Assembly: GCA_001399705.1 (NCBI GenBank)
Contig: LJCR01000009.1
Span: 1-20,913, forward strand
Origin: Kouleothrix aurantiaca
GTDB lineage: Bacteria; Chloroflexota; Chloroflexia; Chloroflexales; Roseiflexaceae
Direction of reading: 5' to 3'
Length of the DNA: 20,913 nt
In this document: one piece after another, positions 1,221-20,609 of the stretch
Layout: each line of letters opens with the position of its first letter
Position numbering within the stretch: the stretch's first letter is position 1
Program-made: the position numbers and the translations under genes
The notes under the pieces: model-generated
Database searches by the model: none
Told to the model about the DNA's origin: nothing
The model's input: the letters and a program-made list of their open reading frames with translations, nothing else

Positions 1221-1250
1221 CGCTTATCAGAATATGATAGGAGTATCGTG

Positions 1251-1625
1251 ATGACGACCGCTGCTGTACTTCCTGATCAGCCGTCCACTTCCACACAATC
1301 CGACACCGCAGCCCAGTTGCTCGCCCGCGTGTTTGCCGGTATGAGCGATCCCACCCGGCTGCGTATTCTGCTGTTGCTCCTGGAGCGGGAGCACAATGTC
1401 AGCGAATTGGTTGAGGCTGTCGGTACATCTCAAGGCCGTGTGTCCATGCATCTGCAATGTCTGCGCTGGTGTGGCTTTGTGACGAGTGAGCGGCGCGGCA
1501 AGTTCGTGTACTACCGCGTGTGTGACCCACGCGTGCGGGAGCTGATCAAGCTGGCGCAGGATATGGTGGTCCTGCATGGCGAGCAGCTTGCCACTTGTTC
1601 GGTTCTCAATACGGCAAACGAGTAG
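1251..1625 (+). CDS. ArsR/SmtB-family metalloregulatory repressor, CmtR-like
   Basis: A 124-residue winged-helix protein. The ArsR signature GMSDPTRLRILLLLL is near residues 30-44, followed by the helix-turn-helix NVSELVEAVGTSQGRVSMHL. Within the recognition helix is HLQCLRWCG (Cys70 and Cys74). The C-X3-C in this position is the hallmark of the Cd/Pb sensor CmtR, whose third ligand is a Cys near the C-terminus; Cys116 (LATCS) could serve that role, and Cys91 is also present. ArsR-type repressors control mer operons in some Gram-positive bacteria. A GTG at 1248 directly precedes the ATG at 1251; the ATG is preferred because AGGAG (1239-1243) lies 7 bases before it. It is first in the mer operon and probably represses it, sensing Hg(II) or another thiophilic metal. 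Confidence 0.85.
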   Translation: MTTAAVLPDQPSTSTQSDTAAQLLARVFAGMSDPTRLRILLLLLEREHNVSELVEAVGTSQGRVSMHLQCLRWCGFVTSERRGKFVYYRVCDPRVRELIKLAQDMVVLHGEQLATCSVLNTANE

Positions 1626-1650: not shown

Positions 1651-1944
1651 ATGCGACGTTCCATCGGCTCCTCTCTCTTGCTCATCACGGGGTTTCTGGC
1701 CTGTCCCTGTCATGTATCCCTCACCTTGCCGCTTCTTGTTGCGCTCTTTGGTCGGACAGCCCTCGGCACCTGGCGCTCAACCCATACTGGCCTTGTGATC
1801 GGGTTGAGTGCCGGCTACTTTCTCGCCGCGATTGTTCTCGGCATCTGGCTTCTGAAACGACCTAGCCCAGAGAGTGGCGTATCGTGCTCATCTCCACAGC
1901 GCCATCAACCCCAATCGCTCGTTGAAGATCGGAGACTCCCTTGA
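1651..1944 (+). CDS. merE: MerE-like small mercury transport membrane protein
   Basis: A 97-residue protein with two hydrophobic segments (about residues 8-33 and 46-67). The first contains ACPCH (Cys18, Cys20, His21). MerE, the broad mercury/organomercury transporter of mer operons, carries the same CPCH in its first membrane segment and has a similar two-helix layout, although it is a little shorter. The hydrophilic tail (residues 71-97) is not part of that model. The ATG at 1651 has GGGAGG five bases upstream. The stop overlaps the TTG start of merA by four bases (TTGA), so the two are translationally coupled. No merT or merP is present, so this would be the only recognisable Hg importer of the operon. 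Assignment rests on motif, topology and context; overall similarity is low. Confidence 0.65.
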
Positions 1945-3404
1945 GTACACCTCAGATATATGACTTGGTGATTATGGGCAGCGGTTCAACAGCCTTTGCT
2001 GCGGCGCTCAGAGCTGCAGAGCTGGGCAAACGAGCCGTGATGACCGAGGCACGAACGCTCGGTGGTACCTGCGTCAACCGCGGCTGTCTGCCCTCGAAAA
2101 ACCTGATTGAGGCAGCAAAAATCATCTTTGATGCCCGCAATCCGCGCTACCCTGGTATTGCCCCCCACGAACCAGTGTTCGACTTCGACCAGCTCATCGC
2201 TCAAAAGGATGAGCTTGTTTCGAGCTATCGCGACAAGAAGTATCAAAGCATCATCGGTAAAGATCAGGATATCGATGTGGTGTATGGGCGCGCGCGGCTT
2301 CTGGACCCGCATACTGTCGCGGTGGACGGGCCGGAGGGTACGACCGAGCTTCGCGGAAACAAGATATTGATTGCCCTTGGCTCAAGCCCCACGCTTCCAT
2401 CTATCGAAGGGCTTGAGGAAACGCCGTACCTGACAAGCGACCTGCTCACGAGCCAGGAGGAGATGGAGCTGAAAGAGCTGCCCTCCTCGCTGATCATCGT
2501 GGGTGGTGGATATATTGCCCTGGAGCTTGGCCAGATGTTTGCTCGCTTTGGTACGCGGGTCACCATCCTTGAGCGCAATACCAGGGTGCTACGGCATGGC
2601 TATGAGCCTGAAGTCGGCATCACCATTCAACGCATTCTTCGAAACGAAGGTATCAATGTGCAGACGAAGGCTGAGGTGGTGCGCGTCTCAGGCGATGAGC
2701 GCGAAGTGAGCGTGACCGCCCGTGTGGATGGTCAAGAGCAAGCGTTCCGGGCTGCTCGGCTGCTGATTGCAACGGGACGCGAGCCCAACACCCGCAATGT
2801 TGGCCTTGAGGCCGCTGGCGTCGAGCTGGTAGACGGGGGAGCGGTCAAAGTTGATGAGCATCTGCGCACCTCTGTGCCGCACATGTTTGCTGCTGGCGAT
2901 GTGATCGGCGCACAGCACGGCAATCAGCTTGCGACGCCGGTTGGGGCACACGACGGCGTTATTGTCGCCCACAACGCCTTTGCCGAGGAGACAGGCCGCA
3001 CGCCGCGTGTGGTTGACCATCGGGTTATTCCACGCACGATCTTTACCGACCCGCAGATCGGCATTGTGGGTATAACCGATGCGGAAGCGAATGCTGCCGG
3101 TCACCGCTGCTGGTGCAACACCATTCCAATGGAGTTCGTTCCCCGTGCTGGAGCCATCCGCGATACGCGTGGGATGATCAAGATGGTGATCGACGACGAT
3201 ACTAAGGAGGTCCTGGGCGTCTCGATGGTGGGTGCCAACGCCGGCGAAGTCATTCACGAGGCGGCGATGGCGATGCGCTTTCGCGCAACGATTGACGACT
3301 ACATCGATATGATCCACGTCTATCCGACGATGGCCGAGGCGCTCAAGATTGTGGCGATCTCGCGCTACAAAGACCCGTCGAAACTGAGTTGCTGTGCAGA
3401 ATAG
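1941..3404 (+). CDS. merA: Mercuric reductase MerA
   Basis: A 487-residue flavoprotein disulfide reductase that reduces Hg(II) to Hg(0) with NADPH in the cytosol. The N-terminal FAD fold starts [13 protein letters not shown], as is characteristic of MerA. The redox pair is in [14 protein letters not shown] (Cys44, Cys49). The NADPH-binding fold is at [17 protein letters not shown] motif 2 is FAAGDVIG. The dimer domain holds the [11 protein letters not shown] and [10 protein letters not shown] segments. The C-terminus ends SCCAE (Cys484, Cys485), the vicinal Cys pair that delivers Hg(II) to the partner subunit's active site and separates MerA from lipoamide dehydrogenase. The N-terminal NmerA metallochaperone domain is absent, as in many short MerAs. 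The start is a TTG overlapping the merE stop, with GGAG six bases upstream. merB follows after eight bases. Confidence 0.97.
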
Positions 3405-3412
3405 GAGGGCGT

Positions 3413-4066
3413 ATGGATGAGACTGAGCTGACGGCGTTGGGGCAGATTCTTGCTGAGCGCATCTGCGGTACGAATGAAGCATTCTGTTTTCAGCTTCTCC
3501 GGCTCTTAGGTCAGGGCCAGCCGGTATCTGCCGCTCAGATGGGCGCGGCCCTTGGTATATCTGACATCGCGGTCACAGAGACCTTCCAGCGCATGCCGGA
3601 CATCGAGCGTGACGAGATCGGACAGGTCGTCGGCTGGGGCTTGTCATTACAGCCAACCCCACATCAGTTTCGTATCAATGGGCACACGCTCTATACCTGG
3701 TGCGCCCTAGATGCGCTGACGTATCCCATTCTCCTGGAACAAACCGCGCAGGTCGAGTCCATCTGTCCGATCACACAGACATCGATCCAGCTACGTGTCG
3801 GTCCTGAAGGTGTGAGCGCCCTTGATCCCGCCACGGCGATGGTCTCACTCAGCATCCCCGATACCGGCCCAGACGCCTGTAACCGGGCAAGCTTTTGCAA
3901 CCAGGGGCATTTCTTCGCTTCGCCTGAGGCCGCCGCGAGCTGGCAGGCGGACCATCCGCAGGCACGTGCGCTGCCGGTGGAAGCGGTCTACCAGCTCGGG
4001 CGCATCATTGCCGCGCGTCGCCAACATCTCTCAACACAGCAATCTCCCGCAGCTCATACGCAGTAA
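3413..4066 (+). CDS. merB: Organomercurial lyase MerB (copy 1, canonical)
   Basis: A 217-residue alkylmercury lyase that protonolyses the C-Hg bond and hands Hg(II) to MerA. The N-terminal winged-helix-like part (about 1-75) is followed by the catalytic MerB fold. Catalytic residues are Cys97 and Asp100 (TWCALDALTYP) and Cys162 (SFCNQGHFF), matching Cys96/Asp99/Cys159 of the R831b enzyme. Cys118 (ESICPITQ) matches its structural Cys117. The conserved PTPHQF segment precedes the active site. The ATG at 3413 is chosen because AGGAGG lies at 3403-3408 just after the merA stop; the reading frame is open further upstream but there overlaps merA. This copy is complete in every key residue and is probably the working lyase of the operon. 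Confidence 0.95.
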   Translation: MDETELTALGQILAERICGTNEAFCFQLLRLLGQGQPVSAAQMGAALGISDIAVTETFQRMPDIERDEIGQVVGWGLSLQPTPHQFRINGHTLYTWCALDALTYPILLEQTAQVESICPITQTSIQLRVGPEGVSALDPATAMVSLSIPDTGPDACNRASFCNQGHFFASPEAAASWQADHPQARALPVEAVYQLGRIIAARRQHLSTQQSPAAHTQ

Positions 4067-4090
4067 GGTTACTCGTAGGAGGTCACTGCG

Positions 4091-4693
4091 ATGAAGAAAC
4101 GAATCATTGCGCTGCTCGTCCCCCTGCTCGGCGGGTTCGTTGCATTGCTGCTGCTGTTTGTGCTGCCCTCAGCACAACGAACGACACCCGGCAGCATGGC
4201 GGGAAACGGCACGCTCACTGCGCCTGCTCCAGTCTTGACCGATATGCAGCACATCGAAGACCTCCAGACCCGTTTCAATCGAGATGCTGGAGCACCACGA
4301 CTGATCTTGCTCTTGTCACCGACATGAGGCGTCTGCCAGGAAGGTGCCCGTTGGGTACAGCAGGAGATTCTCGCCAAGCACCCGACTGCCAACCTTCGCG
4401 TATATGTGGTCTGGTTTTCAATGCTCCCCGGTGATAGGCGAAGTGCCTGGGATACAGAGGTGATGCCCGACCGGCGGGTCACACATCTCTGGGATGAGCA
4501 GCGCCTCACTGGTCGGTGGTTTGCCCAGCATCTCAATAACGCGCAAGAGATCATCTGGGATGGCTATTTGCTGTACGGCCCGGATGCGAAGTGGGAGACG
4601 CTCCCTGAACCGCTGATTGGTTCAAGCACAGGAACGGTCATCGGGAGTGGTGAAGTACTCCAACAACAAATCATACCACTGCTGAAAGAGTGA
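4091..4693 (+). CDS. Membrane-anchored thioredoxin-like protein with in-frame TGA at the redox site (candidate selenoprotein)
   Basis: One frame runs from ATG 4091 (AGGAGG eight bases upstream) to the stop at 4691-4693 and would encode 200 residues, broken only by a TGA at 4325-4327 (codon 79). Residues 1-30 form a Lys-rich start and hydrophobic helix (KKRIIALLVPLLGGFVALLL), a signal anchor. At the TGA the context is LILLLSPT-U-GVCQEGARWV. A strand followed by C-x-x-C is the thioredoxin-fold active site, so TGA sits exactly where the first Cys is expected, with Cys82 as partner. The downstream part (WDEQRLTGRWF, YLLYGPDAKWE) is intact for 121 codons. A hairpin 22 bases after the TGA could be a bacterial SECIS. 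Likely role: extracytoplasmic thiol/selenol redox or mercury binding. The alternative is a nonsense-mutated pseudogene. Confidence 0.6.
4328..4375 (+). promoter_or_regulatory. Candidate bacterial SECIS-like stem-loop after the in-frame TGA
   Basis: GTGCCC (4344-4349) pairs with GGGTAC (4353-4358; six pairs including one G-U) around a GTT loop at 4350-4352. Lower stems CTGC/GCAG (4333-4336 with 4360-4363) and GGCG/CGCC (4328-4331 with 4372-4375) can extend it. The apical loop begins 22 bases after the TGA and its first base is G. This agrees with the known bacterial SECIS model: loop roughly 16-37 bases downstream and a G among the first two loop bases. The loop is small and short hairpins are common in GC-rich coding DNA, so this is only suggestive. 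Confidence 0.35.
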
Positions 4694-4694
4694 T

Positions 4695-5210
4695 ATGGGT
4701 TGGGTCAGCTCACTCTCATCGGCACCCCAACAGAGCAACAGGGCTGACCAGGTCGAAAGCGGTGTCCAAATGATGTTAACGAAACCAATGACAATCGGGC
4801 AACTGTCGCGGCGGACGGGTGTGCCGATCAAAGCCTTACGCGAATACGAACAGCTCGGGTTGATCTACACGCTTGGCCGCAGTGAGAGTAACTACCGCCT
4901 CTTTGATGAGGAGGCGCTGTGGTGTGTACAGGTTATTCGTACCATGCGCTCACTCGGGCTGACCCTCAAAGAAATCCAGGACCTGACTGCTCTCTATCTT
5001 GAGCGCCCAGGCGAGCCGATTGGACCGCATTTCGGTGAAAAACTGGAGGCCGCGCTCACGCGCATCGAAGCCCGGATCACTGACTTGCAGGCGCTACAGC
5101 AGCGCATTCGTGATTTTCAGTGTGCTCACGCCGCGGAGCTGGCGGGAGAGACTGAGTTAGACCTCCTCGCCTCAGACCCGCGCCAGACAGTCGCCAAATT
5201 CTCCTCTTGA
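4695..5210 (+). CDS. MerR-family transcriptional regulator
   Basis: Up to 171 residues. The MerR DNA-binding domain starts at MTIGQLSRRTGVPIKALREY (residues 32-51) with the wing in SESNYRLFDEEAL. A long dimerisation helix (about 115-145) follows. MerR proteins usually begin just before the MTIGQL segment, so ATGs at 4770, 4773 or 4788 are also possible starts; no strong ribosome site decides. Tn501 MerR senses Hg with Cys82, Cys117 and Cys126. Here only Cys77 (within the DNA-binding domain, ALWCVQV) and Cys143 (DFQCAHA, near the Cys117 position) exist, so the classical Hg site is incomplete. The stop codon overlaps the -35 box of a MerR-type promoter driving the next merB. It is probably an activator of that promoter; its inducer is uncertain. 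Confidence 0.85.
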   Translation: MGWVSSLSSAPQQSNRADQVESGVQMMLTKPMTIGQLSRRTGVPIKALREYEQLGLIYTLGRSESNYRLFDEEALWCVQVIRTMRSLGLTLKEIQDLTALYLERPGEPIGPHFGEKLEAALTRIEARITDLQALQQRIRDFQCAHAAELAGETELDLLASDPRQTVAKFSS

Positions 5211-5274: not shown

Positions 5275-5918
5275 ATGACAACGGAAAACCGACTTGAGGA
5301 ACTGGCGGCGACCTTGTATCGTAGTATGCACGAAGGGGTCGATCAGAATGATCCCTTACTCTTTCGACGCTTGGTTGTCCTTCTCTCTGATGGGCGCCAA
5401 TCTCCCCAGAACGCCTTGCTGCGAACCTTGGACGGTCGCGTGAAGACGTTGTGGCGGTACTTCGCAAACGGCTGAGCCTCGAATGGGATGCGGCGGGCAA
5501 CATCGTCGGCGCCGGGCTGACCCTGAATCCCACCCCGCACCGCTTCGAGCTGGATGGGCGGCTGCTGTTTACCTGGTGCGCCCTCGACTCACTGATGTTT
5601 CCTGGACTGGTTGGACAAACGGTCCAGGTTCAGTCACCGTGCGCCAGCACCGGCACCCCGATCCGCGTTACGGTCACCCCGCATGGGGTGGAGCAGGTCG
5701 AACCGCCAGAGGCGGTGGTCTCCCTCGTCACCCCCGAAGCGTCAGCTGACATCAGGCGCGTGTTTTGCGACTACGTACACTTCTTCCGCTCGCCCCAAGC
5801 CGCTTCCGCATGGCTTGACCAACATCCCGGCGCAACCATTTTGCCCGTCGGTGATGCCTACCAGGTTGGTAAGTATCCGGTCGAATGGAATGATGACCGC
5901 GGCGAAGTGGGGCAGTGA
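5275..5918 (+). pseudogene. merB: merB copy 2, frameshifted
   Basis: ATG 5275 has AGGAGG seven bases upstream. The first frame reads MTTENRLEELAATLYRSMHE and stops at 5475. The MerB sequence continues in another frame through SREDVVAVLRKRLSLEWD to the stop at 5918. Inserting one base at about 5428-5432 (ttgga to ttggga) would restore a normal MerB N-domain (RTLGRSREDVV). All catalytic positions survive in the second frame: TWCALDSLMF (Cys codon 5577, Asp codon 5586), QSPCASTG (Cys117 equivalent, codon 5640) and VFCDYVHFF (Cys codon 5766). Its PTPHRFE segment also matches copy 1. It is either a recent one-base deletion, a sequencing error or, less likely, programmed frameshifting. The preserved active site suggests recent loss. 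Confidence 0.85.
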
Positions 5919-9260: not shown

Positions 9261-9926
9261 ATGTCGAACCAAACAGTGTCCAACGCTGACCTACACGCCT
9301 TGGCCGATACGCTCACCAAGCTCTTTGAAGGGTCACCGCAGGAAACAACCGTCCTTCTTGCGACACAGCAGCTGCTGCTTGACGGCCAAGGAGTGGCCCC
9401 CGCACAGATCGCCGCGCGGCTGCAGCTGCCGCAAGAGACGGTCACAGCGCTGCTGCACCAGCTTGGTGTCGAGTGGGATGCGGACGGCAATGTCGTAGGG
9501 TTTGGGCTGTCGCTTACGCCGACACCGCACTCCTACATCATCAACGATCGGCAATTCTACGTCTGGTGCGCCGGCGATGCGATCACGTTTCCGGTCTTGC
9601 ACAAAACCAGCGCGGTGATCGAATCCCCCGATCCGATCAACGGCGTCAAGATCCACCTGATTGGCACGCCGGAAGGTGCGAAGCAGGTTGAGCCCAGCAC
9701 GGCGGTGGTGTCATGGATGCCAGGAACGGAGAGTCTCAACAACATCCGCGCCAACTTCTGCAACTTCACCAACTTCTTCAGCTCAGTTGAGACGGCGGCG
9801 CAGTATGTCGCGCAGCACCCCGGCCTGGTGATTATCCCTGTCGATGCGGTCTTTCAGATCGGCAAGCTGCTCTGGGAGCGCGAGCCGATCAAGTCGTTGA
9901 TTGCCGAGCTTGAGCACCAGGAGTGA
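9261..9926 (+). CDS. merB: MerB homologue (copy 3, divergent organomercurial lyase)
   Basis: A 221-residue MerB-family protein with GGAGG seven bases before the ATG. The N-terminal helical/winged domain (about 10-75) ends in GVEWDADGNVVGFG, the equivalent of the EWDAAGNIVG of copy 2. Catalytic residues are kept: Cys103 and Asp106 (VWCAGDAITFP) and Cys167 (NFCNFTNFF). The Cys117 equivalent is lost: IESPDPING has Asp124 where copies 1, 2 and 4 have Cys. In the R831b enzyme that Cys is structural and dispensable for chemistry, so activity is plausible. The His-Gln-Phe segment PTPHSY is also altered. The gene is intact and follows MerR-type promoter copy 3. It may prefer another organomercurial, or no longer be a lyase. 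Confidence 0.85.
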   Translation: MSNQTVSNADLHALADTLTKLFEGSPQETTVLLATQQLLLDGQGVAPAQIAARLQLPQETVTALLHQLGVEWDADGNVVGFGLSLTPTPHSYIINDRQFYVWCAGDAITFPVLHKTSAVIESPDPINGVKIHLIGTPEGAKQVEPSTAVVSWMPGTESLNNIRANFCNFTNFFSSVETAAQYVAQHPGLVIIPVDAVFQIGKLLWEREPIKSLIAELEHQE

Positions 9927-10013
9927 TCCGGTGAATGTCAAACACTCCGCTACCAGGTCTCTGACAATATCAACGACGAGTTCGAGAAGAACATGTTACT
10001 GAGGGGGTTCTCA

Positions 10014-10508
10014 ATGATAACCGAACAGCTCCTGCCAGCACGGCGGCGCGCGATCGGGGTGCTCGGCACGCTGGCGCGGCTCGTCGTCGGCAGCTGGATG
10101 CTCGCGAGTAACATCGCCGCTTTCCAGCTGGACGAGTGGTATGAAGGGGTGCTGGGGCTGCTCGTGTTCCCGGCGATACTGCTGCTGGGGCAGTGGCTGC
10201 GGCTGCACTCCACGTCGACCCCGCTGCGCGCGACCGGCCCGGTTGGCTATCTCGTCAATGCGGCGATCTTTCTAGCGTTGTATCTGACGCCGTGGTATTT
10301 TCCGCCCCTGGCGTTCACGAGTGATGCCGTGGTGTACTTCTACGGCGCCTCGATGCTGCTGGCTGCCGTGCGTGGCTACGCGGGGTGCGAGGTCCTGGCT
10401 GTGTCCAACTGGCTGCTCGGGCGTGACGATCAAGTCGGGTGCGTCGTCTTCTTGCCAGTGGACGCGGTTGAGACACGACTAAGTGGTGCAGCAAGGCACG
10501 AGCAGTAA
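10014..10508 (+). CDS. Small integral membrane protein of unknown function in the merB cluster
   Basis: A 164-residue protein started at ATG 10014, which has GAGGGGG six bases upstream; ATG 9993 is an in-frame alternative with a poor site. About four hydrophobic helices are visible (roughly LGTLARLVVGSWMLASNIAA, VLGLLVFPAILLLG, GYLVNAAIFLALYLTPW and FYGASMLLAAVRGY). The C-terminal part reads GCEVLAVSNWLLGRDDQVGC, with two Cys flanking a conserved-looking stretch, then VVFLPVDAVE. I do not recognise a characterised family. Its place between two intact MerB homologues, with short gaps and the same strand, suggests a role connected with them, for example transport of mercurials through the paired Cys, but that is inference from position only. 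Confidence 0.6.
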   Translation: MITEQLLPARRRAIGVLGTLARLVVGSWMLASNIAAFQLDEWYEGVLGLLVFPAILLLGQWLRLHSTSTPLRATGPVGYLVNAAIFLALYLTPWYFPPLAFTSDAVVYFYGASMLLAAVRGYAGCEVLAVSNWLLGRDDQVGCVVFLPVDAVETRLSGAARHEQ

Positions 10509-10696: not shown

Positions 10697-11362
10697 ATGG
10701 ACGACACCACCAGCCACCCGGTCGACGATTTCGATGCCGGGTGGCAAACCGTGGGCCGACAGTATCAGCCAGCTATCCAGGTGACCTCGGCGTTGATCAA
10801 GCTGAGTGGAGGGGGCGAGCGACCCGTCGAGGTTGAGCAGTTAGCCGCCGCCAGCGATCGGCCTGTGGACGAGACACTGGCTCTGGCGCGGCAGTTCCTC
10901 AAGGTAAATGTGCAGGAAGGGCTCGTCCACCTTGGCCTGTCTACGGCGGGCACATCCGCCCGCTATCGCCTCCAGATCGGCGCGCGCACGATCGATGCGG
11001 GCGGGTGCGCACCAGATATCGTTTGGATGGCGCTACTTGCCGGCACGCCGATTCACGCGCAGGCGACCTGCCCGGCGACCGGGAGTCCGATTCGCGTCGA
11101 CTTCACCCCAGATGGTGTCGAGCGCGTGGAGCCGCCCAGCAGCGTCATCGCGGTGATCAGCCCGTTTGCGCCACAGCTCCAGCAGCTCAGCAGCAGGGAG
11201 CAGGCTGAAGCGGACGTTTGCTCCCAGCAGCCATTCTTCGCTTCGGCAGAGGCGGCGGCAGACTGGCAGGCCCAGCACCCCGCCGGGCGTATCTTCCCGG
11301 TTCGGGAGTTTTTCGTGTGGTGGGGACGCTTCCTTACCGCCGTGAGCGTGGACATCCCCTGA
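10697..11362 (+). CDS. MerB-like protein (copy 4, strongly divergent)
   Basis: A 221-residue protein with AGGAGG eight bases before ATG 10697. The N-terminal part (to about 95) barely resembles the other copies and lacks the EWDxxGN and PTPHxF segments. The C-terminal half keeps the MerB pattern: GGCAPDIVWMALL (Cys104, Asp107), ATCPATGSPIRVDFTPDGVE (Cys125 at the Cys117 position), EPPSSVIAVISP and DVCSQQPFFASAEAAADWQ (Cys175), followed by HPAGRIFPV. Thus all three catalytic positions and the structural Cys persist, although the usual W/F before the first Cys is Gly-Gly. Downstream is a short CACCC/GGGTG hairpin (11372-11385) without a T-tract. It may be a lyase with another substrate, or a mercury-binding relative. 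Confidence 0.75.
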   Translation: MDDTTSHPVDDFDAGWQTVGRQYQPAIQVTSALIKLSGGGERPVEVEQLAAASDRPVDETLALARQFLKVNVQEGLVHLGLSTAGTSARYRLQIGARTIDAGGCAPDIVWMALLAGTPIHAQATCPATGSPIRVDFTPDGVERVEPPSSVIAVISPFAPQLQQLSSREQAEADVCSQQPFFASAEAAADWQAQHPAGRIFPVREFFVWWGRFLTAVSVDIP

Positions 11363-16211: not shown

Positions 16212-17903
16212 ATGGAAGATCTCAACGTACTGATCACTCGGGCGCAAGCGTGTGATCTGGATGCCTATGGCCGGCTGGTGCAACGGTTCCAAGACATGGC
16301 CGTCGGCTACGCCTACACCATCCTTGGCGATGTGCATCTGGCAGAAGATGTCGCCCAGGAGGCCTTTGTCGAGGCATACGCCAACCTGGTCAAGCTGCAT
16401 CATCCGGCAGCTTTCTCCGCGTGGTTGCGAAAGATCGTCTTCAAGCATTGTGACCGGCTCAGACGGCGGAAGCGCATCGTAACAGTTCCGCTCGATACTG
16501 CCGCACAGGCGATTGTGGGCGAGTCCGATCCAGCGGTGATCGTTGAGGCAGCTGAGTTGCAGCGCCAGGTGATGGAGGCGATATGGGCATTGCCACCTGA
16601 CGAGCGCACCGTAACGACACTCTTCTACATCAGCGATTATTCGCAGCGCGAGATCGGTGCGTTCCTTGACGTACCCGTGATGACGATCAAGAACCGGCTG
16701 CGCACGGCGCGCACGCGACTACGCGTGAGCATGCTGGCGCTGCTCCAGGAGAACCTCTCCGACCAGCGCCCATCCCGAGACAGCACCTTCAAGGAGGCGA
16801 CCATGCAGGCACTCGACAATCTGATCCAGGCAGCATGCAGCGGCGACGTCGAACAAGCCAGACGGCTGCTCCAAGCCGATCCCTCGACGGTCCATACTCG
16901 TGACCCCTATCTGCAGAGTACGCCGCTCCACTATGCGGTGCATCGCGGCTATGTGGAGATCGTGCAGTTATTGTTGACCGCCGGGGCCGACGTGATGGCG
17001 CGTGAAGGCAGCAGTGACACGATCCCGCTACATTGGGCGGCCGAAGGGGGGCATCTGGAGGTTGCGCGGCTGCTGGTGGACCACGGCGCCGATGTCAACG
17101 CGATCGATGGCTGGCACAACCTCAGTCCAGTGGGCTGGGCCGTCGCGCTAGGGTCCGGCCAGTGTCGTCGCGAAGCTGCGCGGCACGAGGTTGCAGACTT
17201 CATGCTAAGTAGGGGCGCACAGCTCGACATCTTCTCGGCGATCGCCTGGGGCAAGCCAGATGCGGTCCAGGCGCTGATCGAGACCGATCGCGCTGTGCTC
17301 AGCCAACCGTTAGGGATCGTGGACCAACGCCGGCAGCCGCTGCACTTCGCCGTTCAGCACGGTCGGCCAGACATGGTGACATTGCTGCTGGACGCTGGCG
17401 CGGATGTGCATGCCATCACCGCCTGGGGCCTCACGCCGTTCTGCCTTGCCGTGACACACCGACAAGGACATATTGCGGAGCTTTTGCGCGCCAGGCACGG
17501 CGATGCTGATCTGTCGGCAGCAGTAGCCCTCAATCAGCTCGATCGCGCCAAAGCCCTGCTAGAGGCCGATTCGACCCTGGTCAGTCCGGCCGGCGCATAT
17601 CAGCGGCTGCTGCACTTCACCGCCCAGCAGGGCCTCGCGGAAGCGACCGCCTTGCTGCTCAGCTATCGGGCCGATCCCAACGTTGCGGCTGAGCATTTCC
17701 ACCAGGAGATCATCTGCCCGCTCTCGCCACTGCATGTGGCCGCGTGGCACGGCCACCTGGAGGTGGCGCGCGTCCTGCTCGACCATGGCGCCGATTTGCA
17801 GGCCAGAGACGCTCAGTATGAGAGCACCCCGTTCATCTGGGCGAAATGGCATCACCAGGAGGCGGTCGCCGCGCTCTTGAAACAGCGCGGGGCACAAACA
17901 TAG
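16212..17903 (+). CDS. ECF-type RNA polymerase sigma factor fused to ankyrin repeats
   Basis: A 563-residue single frame. Residues about 8-85 are sigma region 2 (DAYGRLVQRFQDMAVGYAY, GDVHLAEDVAQEAFVEAY, FSAWLRKIVFKHC). Residues about 115-172 are region 4 with the helix-turn-helix SQREIGAFLDVPVMTIKNRL. A linker (about 175-197) leads to about eight ankyrin-type units to the end; clear ones are TPLHYAVHRGYVEIVQLLL, IPLHWAAEGGHLEVARLLVD, QPLHFAVQHGRPDMVTLLLD and SPLHVAAWHGHLEVARVLLD, each with GAD-type turns. Ankyrins bind proteins, so this tail may act as a built-in anti-sigma or sensor. No anti-sigma gene is adjacent. An in-frame AAGGAGG and ATG at 16791-16805 could start a free ankyrin protein (from Met198). 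ATG 16212 has only a weak site (AACGGTGATCC). Confidence 0.9.
   Translation: MEDLNVLITRAQACDLDAYGRLVQRFQDMAVGYAYTILGDVHLAEDVAQEAFVEAYANLVKLHHPAAFSAWLRKIVFKHCDRLRRRKRIVTVPLDTAAQAIVGESDPAVIVEAAELQRQVMEAIWALPPDERTVTTLFYISDYSQREIGAFLDVPVMTIKNRLRTARTRLRVSMLALLQENLSDQRPSRDSTFKEATMQALDNLIQAACSGDVEQARRLLQADPSTVHTRDPYLQSTPLHYAVHRGYVEIVQLLLTAGADVMAREGSSDTIPLHWAAEGGHLEVARLLVDHGADVNAIDGWHNLSPVGWAVALGSGQCRREAARHEVADFMLSRGAQLDIFSAIAWGKPDAVQALIETDRAVLSQPLGIVDQRRQPLHFAVQHGRPDMVTLLLDAGADVHAITAWGLTPFCLAVTHRQGHIAELLRARHGDADLSAAVALNQLDRAKALLEADSTLVSPAGAYQRLLHFTAQQGLAEATALLLSYRADPNVAAEHFHQEIICPLSPLHVAAWHGHLEVARVLLDHGADLQARDAQYESTPFIWAKWHHQEAVAALLKQRGAQT
16791..16805 (+). promoter_or_regulatory. Internal ribosome binding site and start at the sigma/ankyrin junction
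   Basis: AAGGAGG (16791-16797) lies five bases before an in-frame ATG (16803-16805, Met198), exactly where the sigma part ends and the ankyrin part begins (MQALDNLIQAACSGDVEQA). It is a better ribosome site than that of the full gene. Either it makes a separate 366-residue ankyrin protein or it is a relic of two genes that fused. Confidence 0.45.
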
Positions 17904-19364: not shown

Positions 19365-20609
19365 TTATTGGATCGGTTTCCATCGCACGGTGCGCCCCCG
19401 CTCCAGCAACACGCAGTCTTTCGGCAGCGCCGATGGTGGCTCGCCCGTGACCCGCGCAAACGCCAACCGTCCCTGTGTGGTGGCCGTGGGTGAATAGATG
19501 CTGTAGACTTGCTTGACCCACCACCCCTTGACCCGCACGATGTCGCCCTTGCGAAAGCCGGCCAATTCCTCGTTCACCTGATAGCGCACGCGCCCCTTCC
19601 CTTTTCGGGGTAGGTCGTGAAACTGCCTCCTGGTCTGTCGCGGCCGAAAGTTGATCTGGTAGGTGTTCGGGCATTCAGGGGCGACTATCTCTCCACTCCC
19701 CAGGGTCGCAACACACAACGCGTCAGCCGTATGCGTCTTTGCCAGCCCCCTTCTCTTCCGAAACGCGCTGGTCGCGTAGCCAAACACGGTCGTGAGCGGG
19801 ACGGACGCGCCGAGGGTCGCGTAGAGATAGGTCTTGCCCTGCATACTCCGCTGGGCGATCTGGTCGAGATGGCCCGACACCCCAGTCACCGACAAGGTAA
19901 TCGTCCCATCATGGACGCGATCGTGGCAGCGTTCGCACAGCGTCAACAAGTTGGCGAGCGTGTCCTTGCCGCCATGCTCGCGGTAGACGATGTGATGGGC
20001 TTCCAGGCGGCAGTTGCCTTTACCACAGTGCCGGCAGGTATAACCGTCGCGCATCAGGCAAGCGATCCGCAGGTTCTCGTCCAGGCGGGTCGGATCCTGG
20101 TAGCGACTGCCGCGGAGCGTGGGATTGTTCAGCTGCGCGATGTCCACCTGCACATCCTCAACGACGATGCGGCTGATGGGCAGCGGAAGCTGCTTGACCA
20201 CCCGGATCACCTCCTCGACATTGGCCTTGATCGAGGGTGGCAGCCGCCCGCTGCGTGTGCTGGAGGCACGATTGGCAAAGCGCGCTGGCCGATACCACGT
20301 CCGAGCGCGCCGGCTTTTGCGGTGGGTACGGCGGATGTCGAGTTTCTCTTTCACATCGCGACGGTGGTGGATCTCGGCAGCCAGCAGGACTGCTCCGTTG
20401 CCGACACAACTGATGCCCGTCACGCTGCTGCCTTTGTCGATACCCACTGTCACGTCTTGCACATGTCCCTCACACTGCCAGGCGAGCTGGATGGTGAAGG
20501 GAGAACGAGCGACTACCCTGGCTTTCCCTGCTCGCAGCAGCTTGCGCGCTTTGGCCTCCGTACAGGGCATCAATGGTGCCCCGTCCTGATTGCGAACATA
20601 GACCTTCAT
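19365..20609 (-). CDS. iscB: IscB RNA-guided nuclease (RuvC-HNH, Cas9 ancestor family)
   Basis: A 414-residue protein with the complete IscB order. The N-terminal PLMP domain contains GAPLMPCTEAKARKLLRAGK (about residues 10-29). RuvC-I is VGIDKGSSVTGI (Asp58). An Arg-rich bridge helix follows (RRTHRKSRRARTWYRPARF, about 93-111), with RLPPS before the next helix. RuvC-II is RIVVEDVQVD (Glu151). The HNH domain has zinc ligands CRHC (192, 195) and CERC (225, 228) and catalytic EAHHIV (His205/206), with Asn220. RuvC-III is AKTHTADALC (His293, Asp296). A C-terminal domain of about 115 residues (INFRPRQTRRQFHDLPRKGK onward) would read the TAM. Such proteins cut DNA guided by an omega RNA encoded just upstream. 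No TnpA transposase is in the window. Confidence 0.9.
   Translation of the reverse strand: MKVYVRNQDGAPLMPCTEAKARKLLRAGKARVVARSPFTIQLAWQCEGHVQDVTVGIDKGSSVTGISCVGNGAVLLAAEIHHRRDVKEKLDIRRTHRKSRRARTWYRPARFANRASSTRSGRLPPSIKANVEEVIRVVKQLPLPISRIVVEDVQVDIAQLNNPTLRGSRYQDPTRLDENLRIACLMRDGYTCRHCGKGNCRLEAHHIVYREHGGKDTLANLLTLCERCHDRVHDGTITLSVTGVSGHLDQIAQRSMQGKTYLYATLGASVPLTTVFGYATSAFRKRRGLAKTHTADALCVATLGSGEIVAPECPNTYQINFRPRQTRRQFHDLPRKGKGRVRYQVNEELAGFRKGDIVRVKGWWVKQVYSIYSPTATTQGRLAFARVTGEPPSALPKDCVLLERGRTVRWKPIQ

Follow-up and report, generated by a model that had tools for sequence, protein, structure and literature searches.

The window analyzed here, a 20,913-nucleotide stretch of the Kouleothrix aurantiaca draft genome (contig LJCR01000009.1), carries a mercury-resistance (mer) cluster in which one gene is interrupted by a single in-frame TGA. 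Comparison with homologous sequences indicates that this UGA very probably codes for selenocysteine (Sec), which would make the product a thioredoxin-like selenoprotein. The wider reading, of a selenoprotein with a membrane-anchored, extracytoplasmic thioredoxin-fold domain and a Sec/Cys pair for Hg transfer, is considered probable as a whole, and gene context moderately favors a role of the protein in mercury handling.

Read directly, the frame runs over 200 codons (4091-4690, plus strand) with one internal TGA only, at codon 79 (4325-4327), within the motif LILLLSPT-U-G-V-C; the active-site pair is U79-x-x-C82. An initial annotation of the window had pointed out this interruption along with a signal anchor, a ribosome-binding site and a hairpin whose loop (4350-4352) starts 22 nucleotides after the UGA, and all were recovered here, the anchor by eye. 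The same annotation proposed selenocysteine at the TGA, a reading supported by the exchange of TGA and Cys at codon 79 and by the covariation of the hairpin.

Codon 79 across homologues

Homologues were found in 19 genomes (handles beginning with G), and 20 loci cover the codon-79 site as DNA. TGA occupies the site in 17 loci from 15 genomes, the source genome (G000) and G396 contributing two each, and Cys occupies it in the other three (G130, G484 and G721). G579 was left out of this count, as its match lies 3' of the site. The TGA of G647 was counted and its hairpin was not, the frame being broken just after the TGA, and G659 entered the hairpin count with a shift of one codon. Within the source genome, the second copy (L017; 48% identity) also has TGA at this codon, bears a lipobox-like FVACG at its N-terminus and is followed directly by an intact merB. 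Including this copy, TGA was found in mer-linked loci other than that of the window in the source genome, G396, G306 and G743.

The family spans at least two bacterial phyla. A phylum search of 400 genomes gave 10 with homologues, the source genome among them, and a scan of genome contigs by short exact patterns gave one locus, also with TGA, in a Nitrospinae genome, whose phylum (3 genomes) has 2 with a homologue, that genome included. The class of G229 (29 genomes) yielded 3 genomes with homologues, all already known, and the class of G396 (396 genomes) yielded 8, of which 7 were new. A single-sequence search of 99 other relatives returned no match, and plasmid and phage collections held no homologue at E <= 0.01.

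Two loci stand out in their arrangement. In G659 (L099) both positions of the motif are TGA (UxxU), with the third bases of the hairpin still paired, and in the one-contig genome G396 (L071 7119-10452) two TGA paralogues flank merA, one of them lipoprotein-like and the other without an obvious signal.

Selection was compared upstream and downstream of the TGA in three pairs by the ratio of nonsynonymous to synonymous substitution rates (dN/dS). Upstream and downstream values were 0.225 and 0.219 for the closest pair (G100-G454), 0.285 and 0.224 for G229-G306, and 0.32 and 0.25 for the two source-genome copies, where dS is saturated. Judged from these ratios, which downstream are as low as upstream, constraint after the TGA is at least equal to that before it in the three pairs.

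These results bear on whether the TGA is simply a nonsense mutation of a Cys codon, the gene being a pseudogene within a mer cluster in decay. The initial annotation had allowed for such a TGC-to-TGA change, citing a frameshift in the adjacent merB. The merB directly upstream proved to be intact (Table 1); a frameshifted merB does exist, as a separate copy 3' of merR, with its start in the frame 5275-5475 and the remainder in the frame 5397-5918. Decay is also seen within the family, in G271 (frameshift), G368 (TAG) and G647 (frame lost just after the TGA). Set against this are the occurrence of the same TGA in 17 of 20 loci and in 15 genomes, one of them a one-contig genome, purifying selection 3' of the TGA, and covariation of the hairpin at synonymous sites, all of which make a pseudogene highly improbable.

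Database copies of the family

For comparison at the protein level, 146 database proteins were placed on the family alignment, one of the two source searches having given 120 of 212 matches. The set omits three proteins that the alignment already contained, P0003 (Trp at the site), P0006 (Cys) and P0008 (Cys), and includes P0096, which is encoded by the window itself. Among the matches listed, 119 of the 146 start 3' of the Sec column, 105 of them within 15 alignment columns and 14 later, and only 27 span it, with Cys in 25 and Trp in 2. Starts just after the Sec column are as expected if gene callers cut a UGA-interrupted gene, and the 119 partial copies among the matches listed, which hold only the part 3' of the site, amount to systematic misannotation. 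The same starts could be taken to mean that translation terminates at 4325 and begins again further on, for example at GTG 4406, giving two short open reading frames with two functional peptides. Such a split would divide what is predicted to be one domain, and would do so at its catalytic residue, and there are Cys homologues that are full-length single chains, leaving this arrangement extremely improbable. In one database protein, P0037, a piece of the TGA-gene family (89% over 27% of the query) runs straight into a MerR protein, a join that is perhaps a deletion or an assembly error.

Trp stands at the site in three database copies among the matches listed (P0003, P0061 and P0062), and this could be read as UGA being decoded as Trp or Cys through a reassigned code or a suppressor tRNA rather than as Sec. 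The Trp residues, read here from the protein sequences, probably stem from gene prediction with code 4. The other homologues that span the site have Cys, not Trp, the gene 4091-4693 itself ends in TGA, and the hairpin and the tRNA-Sec genes with anticodon TCA described below point to Sec, so there is very little chance that UGA is decoded as another amino acid.

A covarying hairpin downstream of the UGA

The putative selenocysteine insertion sequence (SECIS) of the window has its 5' arm at 4344-4349 and its 3' arm at 4353-4358. The constraints given for bacterial SECIS elements (bSECIS) in section 5 of PMC13188914 are a loop of 3-9 nt, a stem of 4-16 bp, a G within the first two loop positions, a spacing of 16-37 nt and a minimum free energy (MFE) of -7.5 kcal/mol or lower. 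The window hairpin lies within each of these bounds, with a GUU loop, a 6-bp stem, a UGA-to-loop spacing of 22 nt and an MFE of -8.3 kcal/mol for the hairpin alone (4339-4362).

In loci of the window type, the six codons from +6 to +11 downstream of the UGA are GGN GCC CGT TGG GTN CAG and form a helix of G-N-G-C-C-C and G-G-G-U-N-C around the loop G-U-U. Because the protein sequence is conserved here, codons +6 and +10 have the greatest freedom at their third bases, and these two bases face each other in the helix. They form Watson-Crick pairs in 13/13 loci, with all four pair types represented (TA 2, AT 1, CG 6 and GC 4). This degree of pairing was reached by 1 in 200,000 permutations and ranked at the top of 91 third-base pairs. 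Three loci found later also pair (3/3, all C-G), and the three Cys homologues do not, with 0/3 Watson-Crick (T-T, T-T and T-G). Across 11 distinct rows, 94.5% of helix cells are paired, as compared to 81.5% in shuffled alignments and 20.5-56.4% when the helix is slid, and the covariation score of 0.40 (0.112 in shuffles) was reached by 0/500 shuffles of those rows. A scan of L016, L017, L018 and L004 against Rfam gave no match at or above the gathering score of any family. The significance of the hairpin rests on covariation and not on folding energy; single-sequence folding, with z-scores that are not unusual, was dropped as evidence. Covariation at synonymous sites makes an unusually clear case, on comparative grounds, for a bacterial SECIS, and the hairpin could serve as a model for finding more.

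Selenocysteine machinery

Counts of Sec machinery cover 12 homologue-bearing genomes, the set without those new from the class of G396 and with the Cys-type G130. A tRNA-Sec scored above the cut-off in 10 of the 12, and all ten have the anticodon TCA according to ARAGORN; the two without are the source assembly and G306. In G100, selA lies beside selB. The source assembly is a draft of 3,843 contigs and 83.5% completeness. One of its contigs (C3476) begins inside the C-terminus of SelB and so holds a fragment only, which is 76% identical to the SelB of a same-genus genome and 64% to that of a same-family one, and the genes that follow match a same-genus contig in order when compared by eye. 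From this identity and the matching neighbor order, the SelB fragment belongs to the source lineage.

Gene neighborhood and mercury context

In the window, the gene belongs to a plus-strand mer cluster, in the order ArsR regulator, CPCH protein, merA, merB, TGA gene and MerR regulator (Table 1).

Table 1. Positions in the window of the Sec-encoding candidate, its signals and its mer neighbors
Feature	Position	Strand	Evidence
Sec-containing thioredoxin-like protein (predicted), 200 aa	4091..4693	+	stop TGA 4691-4693; homologues; AlphaFold model
In-frame UGA, codon 79, very probably read as selenocysteine in UGVC	4325..4327	+	TGA/Cys column in homologues
SECIS-like hairpin, 6-bp stem, 3-nt loop GUU	4344..4358	+	bSECIS constraints, covariation
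Ribosome-binding site AGGAGGT	4077..4083	+	read directly; seven bases 5' of ATG
Hydrophobic N-terminal signal anchor, residues 1-25	4091..4165	+	judged by eye
ArsR-family regulator, head of operon	1248..1625	+	PF01022 60.1 bits
Small membrane protein with CPCH motif	1651..1944	+	homologue adjoins merA in G396
merA, mercuric reductase	1941..3404	+	TIGR02053 497.2 bits (cut-off 454.45); C-terminal SKLSCC
merB, organomercurial lyase, intact, directly upstream	3413..4066	+	PF03243 126.8 bits (cut-off 27)
MerR-family regulator, directly downstream	4695..5210	+	PF13411 8.5e-15

Across the family, flanks were read in 18 genomes, and 5 of these have merA or merB there, namely the source genome (both loci), G396, G306, G743 and the Cys-type G130. 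The TGA gene is beside merA in G396 and G306 and near merB in G743, where the domain runs in frame into a MerA-like part (L095 / L103; about 100 residues match, then the contig ends). A weaker MerA-like match (37% over 245 residues) was found in G271. G100 encodes a MerT-like protein (E 2.3e-4, below the Pfam cut-off), and that of G454 is 83% identical to it. At least three Cys homologues have an added HMA domain, and the two scanned came closest to the UxxU metal-binding, MerTP and MerP models, below their cut-offs. Other neighbors include a DsbD_TM protein adjoining the G260 copy, membrane proteins with an NPCGFALLP motif, not named by Pfam, in G229 and G306, and MerR- or ArsR-like regulators near the genes of G229 and G125.

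Elsewhere, the 21-kb window holds further genes of note. Together with the two copies already described, the merB-like genes number four (3413-4066, the frameshift-split 5275-5918, 9261-9926 and the divergent 10697-11362). A membrane protein at 9993-10508, with a weak DUF6410 match and a family not named, resembles by eye neighbors of the TGA gene in G125 (L069 6644-7192, also a weak DUF6410 match) and G396 (L071 7688-8149). A single protein at 16212-17903 fuses sigma-70 regions 2 and 4 to a long run of ankyrin repeats, and the minus-strand gene at 19365-20609 encodes an RRXRR and HNH protein, an architecture that we take to be IscB-like.

Predicted fold and family assignment

AlphaFold predicts a thioredoxin fold for the protein (mean predicted local distance difference test score, pLDDT, 89), near ResA/DsbE. 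In the predicted model the redox motif lies at the N-terminal end of the helix that follows the central strand, as in the thioredoxin-fold superfamily. The cis-proline before the strand that faces the active site, which is common in thioredoxin folds without being universal, is absent, and Trp-Asp (W156-D157) is at its usual place, as assigned from strand order rather than coordinates. At this place, alignment A4 has D in 64/64 rows and W in 61/64. Foldseek matches of the predicted model include glutathione peroxidase (GPx) entries, and the Trp-Asp of the family resembles the Trp-Asn of GPx; a GPx-like active site was considered as a candidate.

The family has no name in the libraries searched. 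None of 15 members matched a TlpA, ResA or AhpC-TSA model of Pfam at E <= 0.1, NCBIfam gave 0 families for the window protein both at E <= 1 and at E <= 0.1, and in no member scanned did the thioredoxin-like domain score at the cut-off of any Pfam or NCBIfam model. The closest NCBIfam approach was the SaoT model against the Cys homologue P0008 (E 0.15, 11.9 bits, cut-off 65). A sequence search of the PDB returned nothing convincing, with 8jxg best (E 0.011), followed by the disulfide oxidoreductase 1a8l (E 0.48). No such family appears among the rows examined of Table 1 in a 2026 selenoprotein catalogue (PMC13188914), and the parts consulted of the literature searched, which included PMC9312934, PMC8261052, PMC2757866 and PMC12013277 along with few subscription papers and no bioRxiv preprints, do not describe it.

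Evidence weighing against the proposed role

A number of observations count against reading the gene as a mercury-linked selenoprotein. As regards the hairpin, two of the three Cys controls (G130 and G484) resemble, by eye, a shorter, more distant subgroup. Pairs changed on both sides number 2, a value reached by 37/500 shuffles, and further pair types number 5, reached by 138/500. The single-sequence fold is ordinary (z -0.79 for 4325-4372 and -1.39 for 4339-4362). The G396b hairpin folds better once the register is moved by two bases, which makes its C-G pair partly coincidental, and G368 has a weak stem only, plus the TAG.

As regards the machinery, G306 has a TGA gene without a tRNA-Sec above the cut-off. 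The initial annotation had proposed a search of the source genome for the Sec genes, and there the outcome is divided: the SelB fragment is present, and selA, selD and tRNA-Sec were not found in the 83.5%-complete, 3,843-contig draft. The gene selA is in 9/9 of the other homologue-bearing genomes of the phylum draw but in 330/400 genomes overall, so there is no enrichment, and the presence of selA was dropped as associative evidence for this reason.

As regards mercury, merA or merB accompanies the gene in 5/18 genomes only, taken as a raw proportion. The flanks read, some of them short, showed no merA or merB in G125, G229, G260, G269, G368, G613, G659, G721, G484, G647, G100 and G454.

Proposed mechanism and its main alternative

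Under the proposed mechanism, the hairpin at 4344-4358 would direct Sec insertion at the UGA, and the product would be a membrane-anchored, extracytoplasmic thioredoxin-fold domain with its active site at U79-x-x-C82. The selenol/thiol pair would bind Hg(II) or an organomercurial cation, and the bound Hg could then be passed toward MerB/MerA, as MerP or the N-terminal metal domain of MerA does, with a thioredoxin fold in their stead. CcdA/DsbD-like membrane proteins, which are encoded beside some members, may re-reduce the pair.

The main rival accepts the selenoprotein and takes it for an extracytoplasmic thiol-disulfide reductase of general function (ResA/CcmG/DsbE-like, supplied by CcdA/DsbD). 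Hg binding would not be its job, and its presence in some mer operons would follow from the oxidation or blocking of envelope thiols by Hg. This explanation is a serious one, to which we would give about one chance in three. It sits poorly with the missing cis-proline and the Trp-Asp before that strand, with the in-frame run of the G743 domain into a MerA-like part, and with the HMA domains in three Cys homologues. It has been proposed that the cis-proline may prevent metal binding (the part of PMC2757866 consulted). In its most specific form, which is put forward tentatively, the mercury-handling reading is a selenium-based Hg-trafficking module. A thioredoxin fold lacking the metal-excluding cis-proline would take up Hg(II) or methylmercury with its selenol/thiol pair, whether within the cell or outside it, and deliver the metal to MerB/MerA. 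If true, uncultured bacteria from at least two phyla would have in this module a substitute for MerP and for the metal domain of MerA, and one that has escaped notice because the gene is truncated at its UGA by gene callers.

The antagonism of selenium and mercury is well known in toxicology. The present analysis suggests a use of selenium chemistry in the mercury handling of some uncultured bacteria, and with a selenol apparently encoded in or beside a mercury-detoxification operon, the biological use of Se-Hg affinity becomes directly testable.

Comparison with known systems

ResA, DsbE, DsbF and CcmG (TlpA-like), all of them extracytoplasmic reductases, have the thioredoxin fold that is predicted for the window family. 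Unlike these, the family has Sec in place of the first Cys (as read here) and Trp-Asp at the cis-proline place, matches no such Pfam model at E <= 0.1 in 15 members, and lies in a mer context in part of its members. SaoT (NF040730) and other thioredoxin-like selenoproteins listed in the portion of PMC13188914 consulted likewise have UxxC in a thioredoxin-like protein, and the name of SaoT comes from the same series as that of SaoL, a MerB-like organometallic lyase; the window family scores below the curated cut-offs of SaoT and of the other NCBIfam selenoprotein models. The same portion of that source places Sec in mercury or organometal proteins, namely SaoL, a putative mercuric transport selenoprotein, a UxxU metal-binding protein and HgcA/HgcB, as is likewise proposed here, whereas the thioredoxin-like domain of the family matched none of these Hg-linked models in the scans made.

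MerP and the N-terminal HMA domain of MerA resemble the window family in being encoded by some mer operons and in having a two-chalcogen site, but the predicted fold of the family is that of thioredoxin and not HMA, and its motif is UxxC instead of CxxC. The HMA domain is N-terminal in some MerA proteins, and the G743 domain, lying N-terminal to its MerA-like part, holds a similar position.
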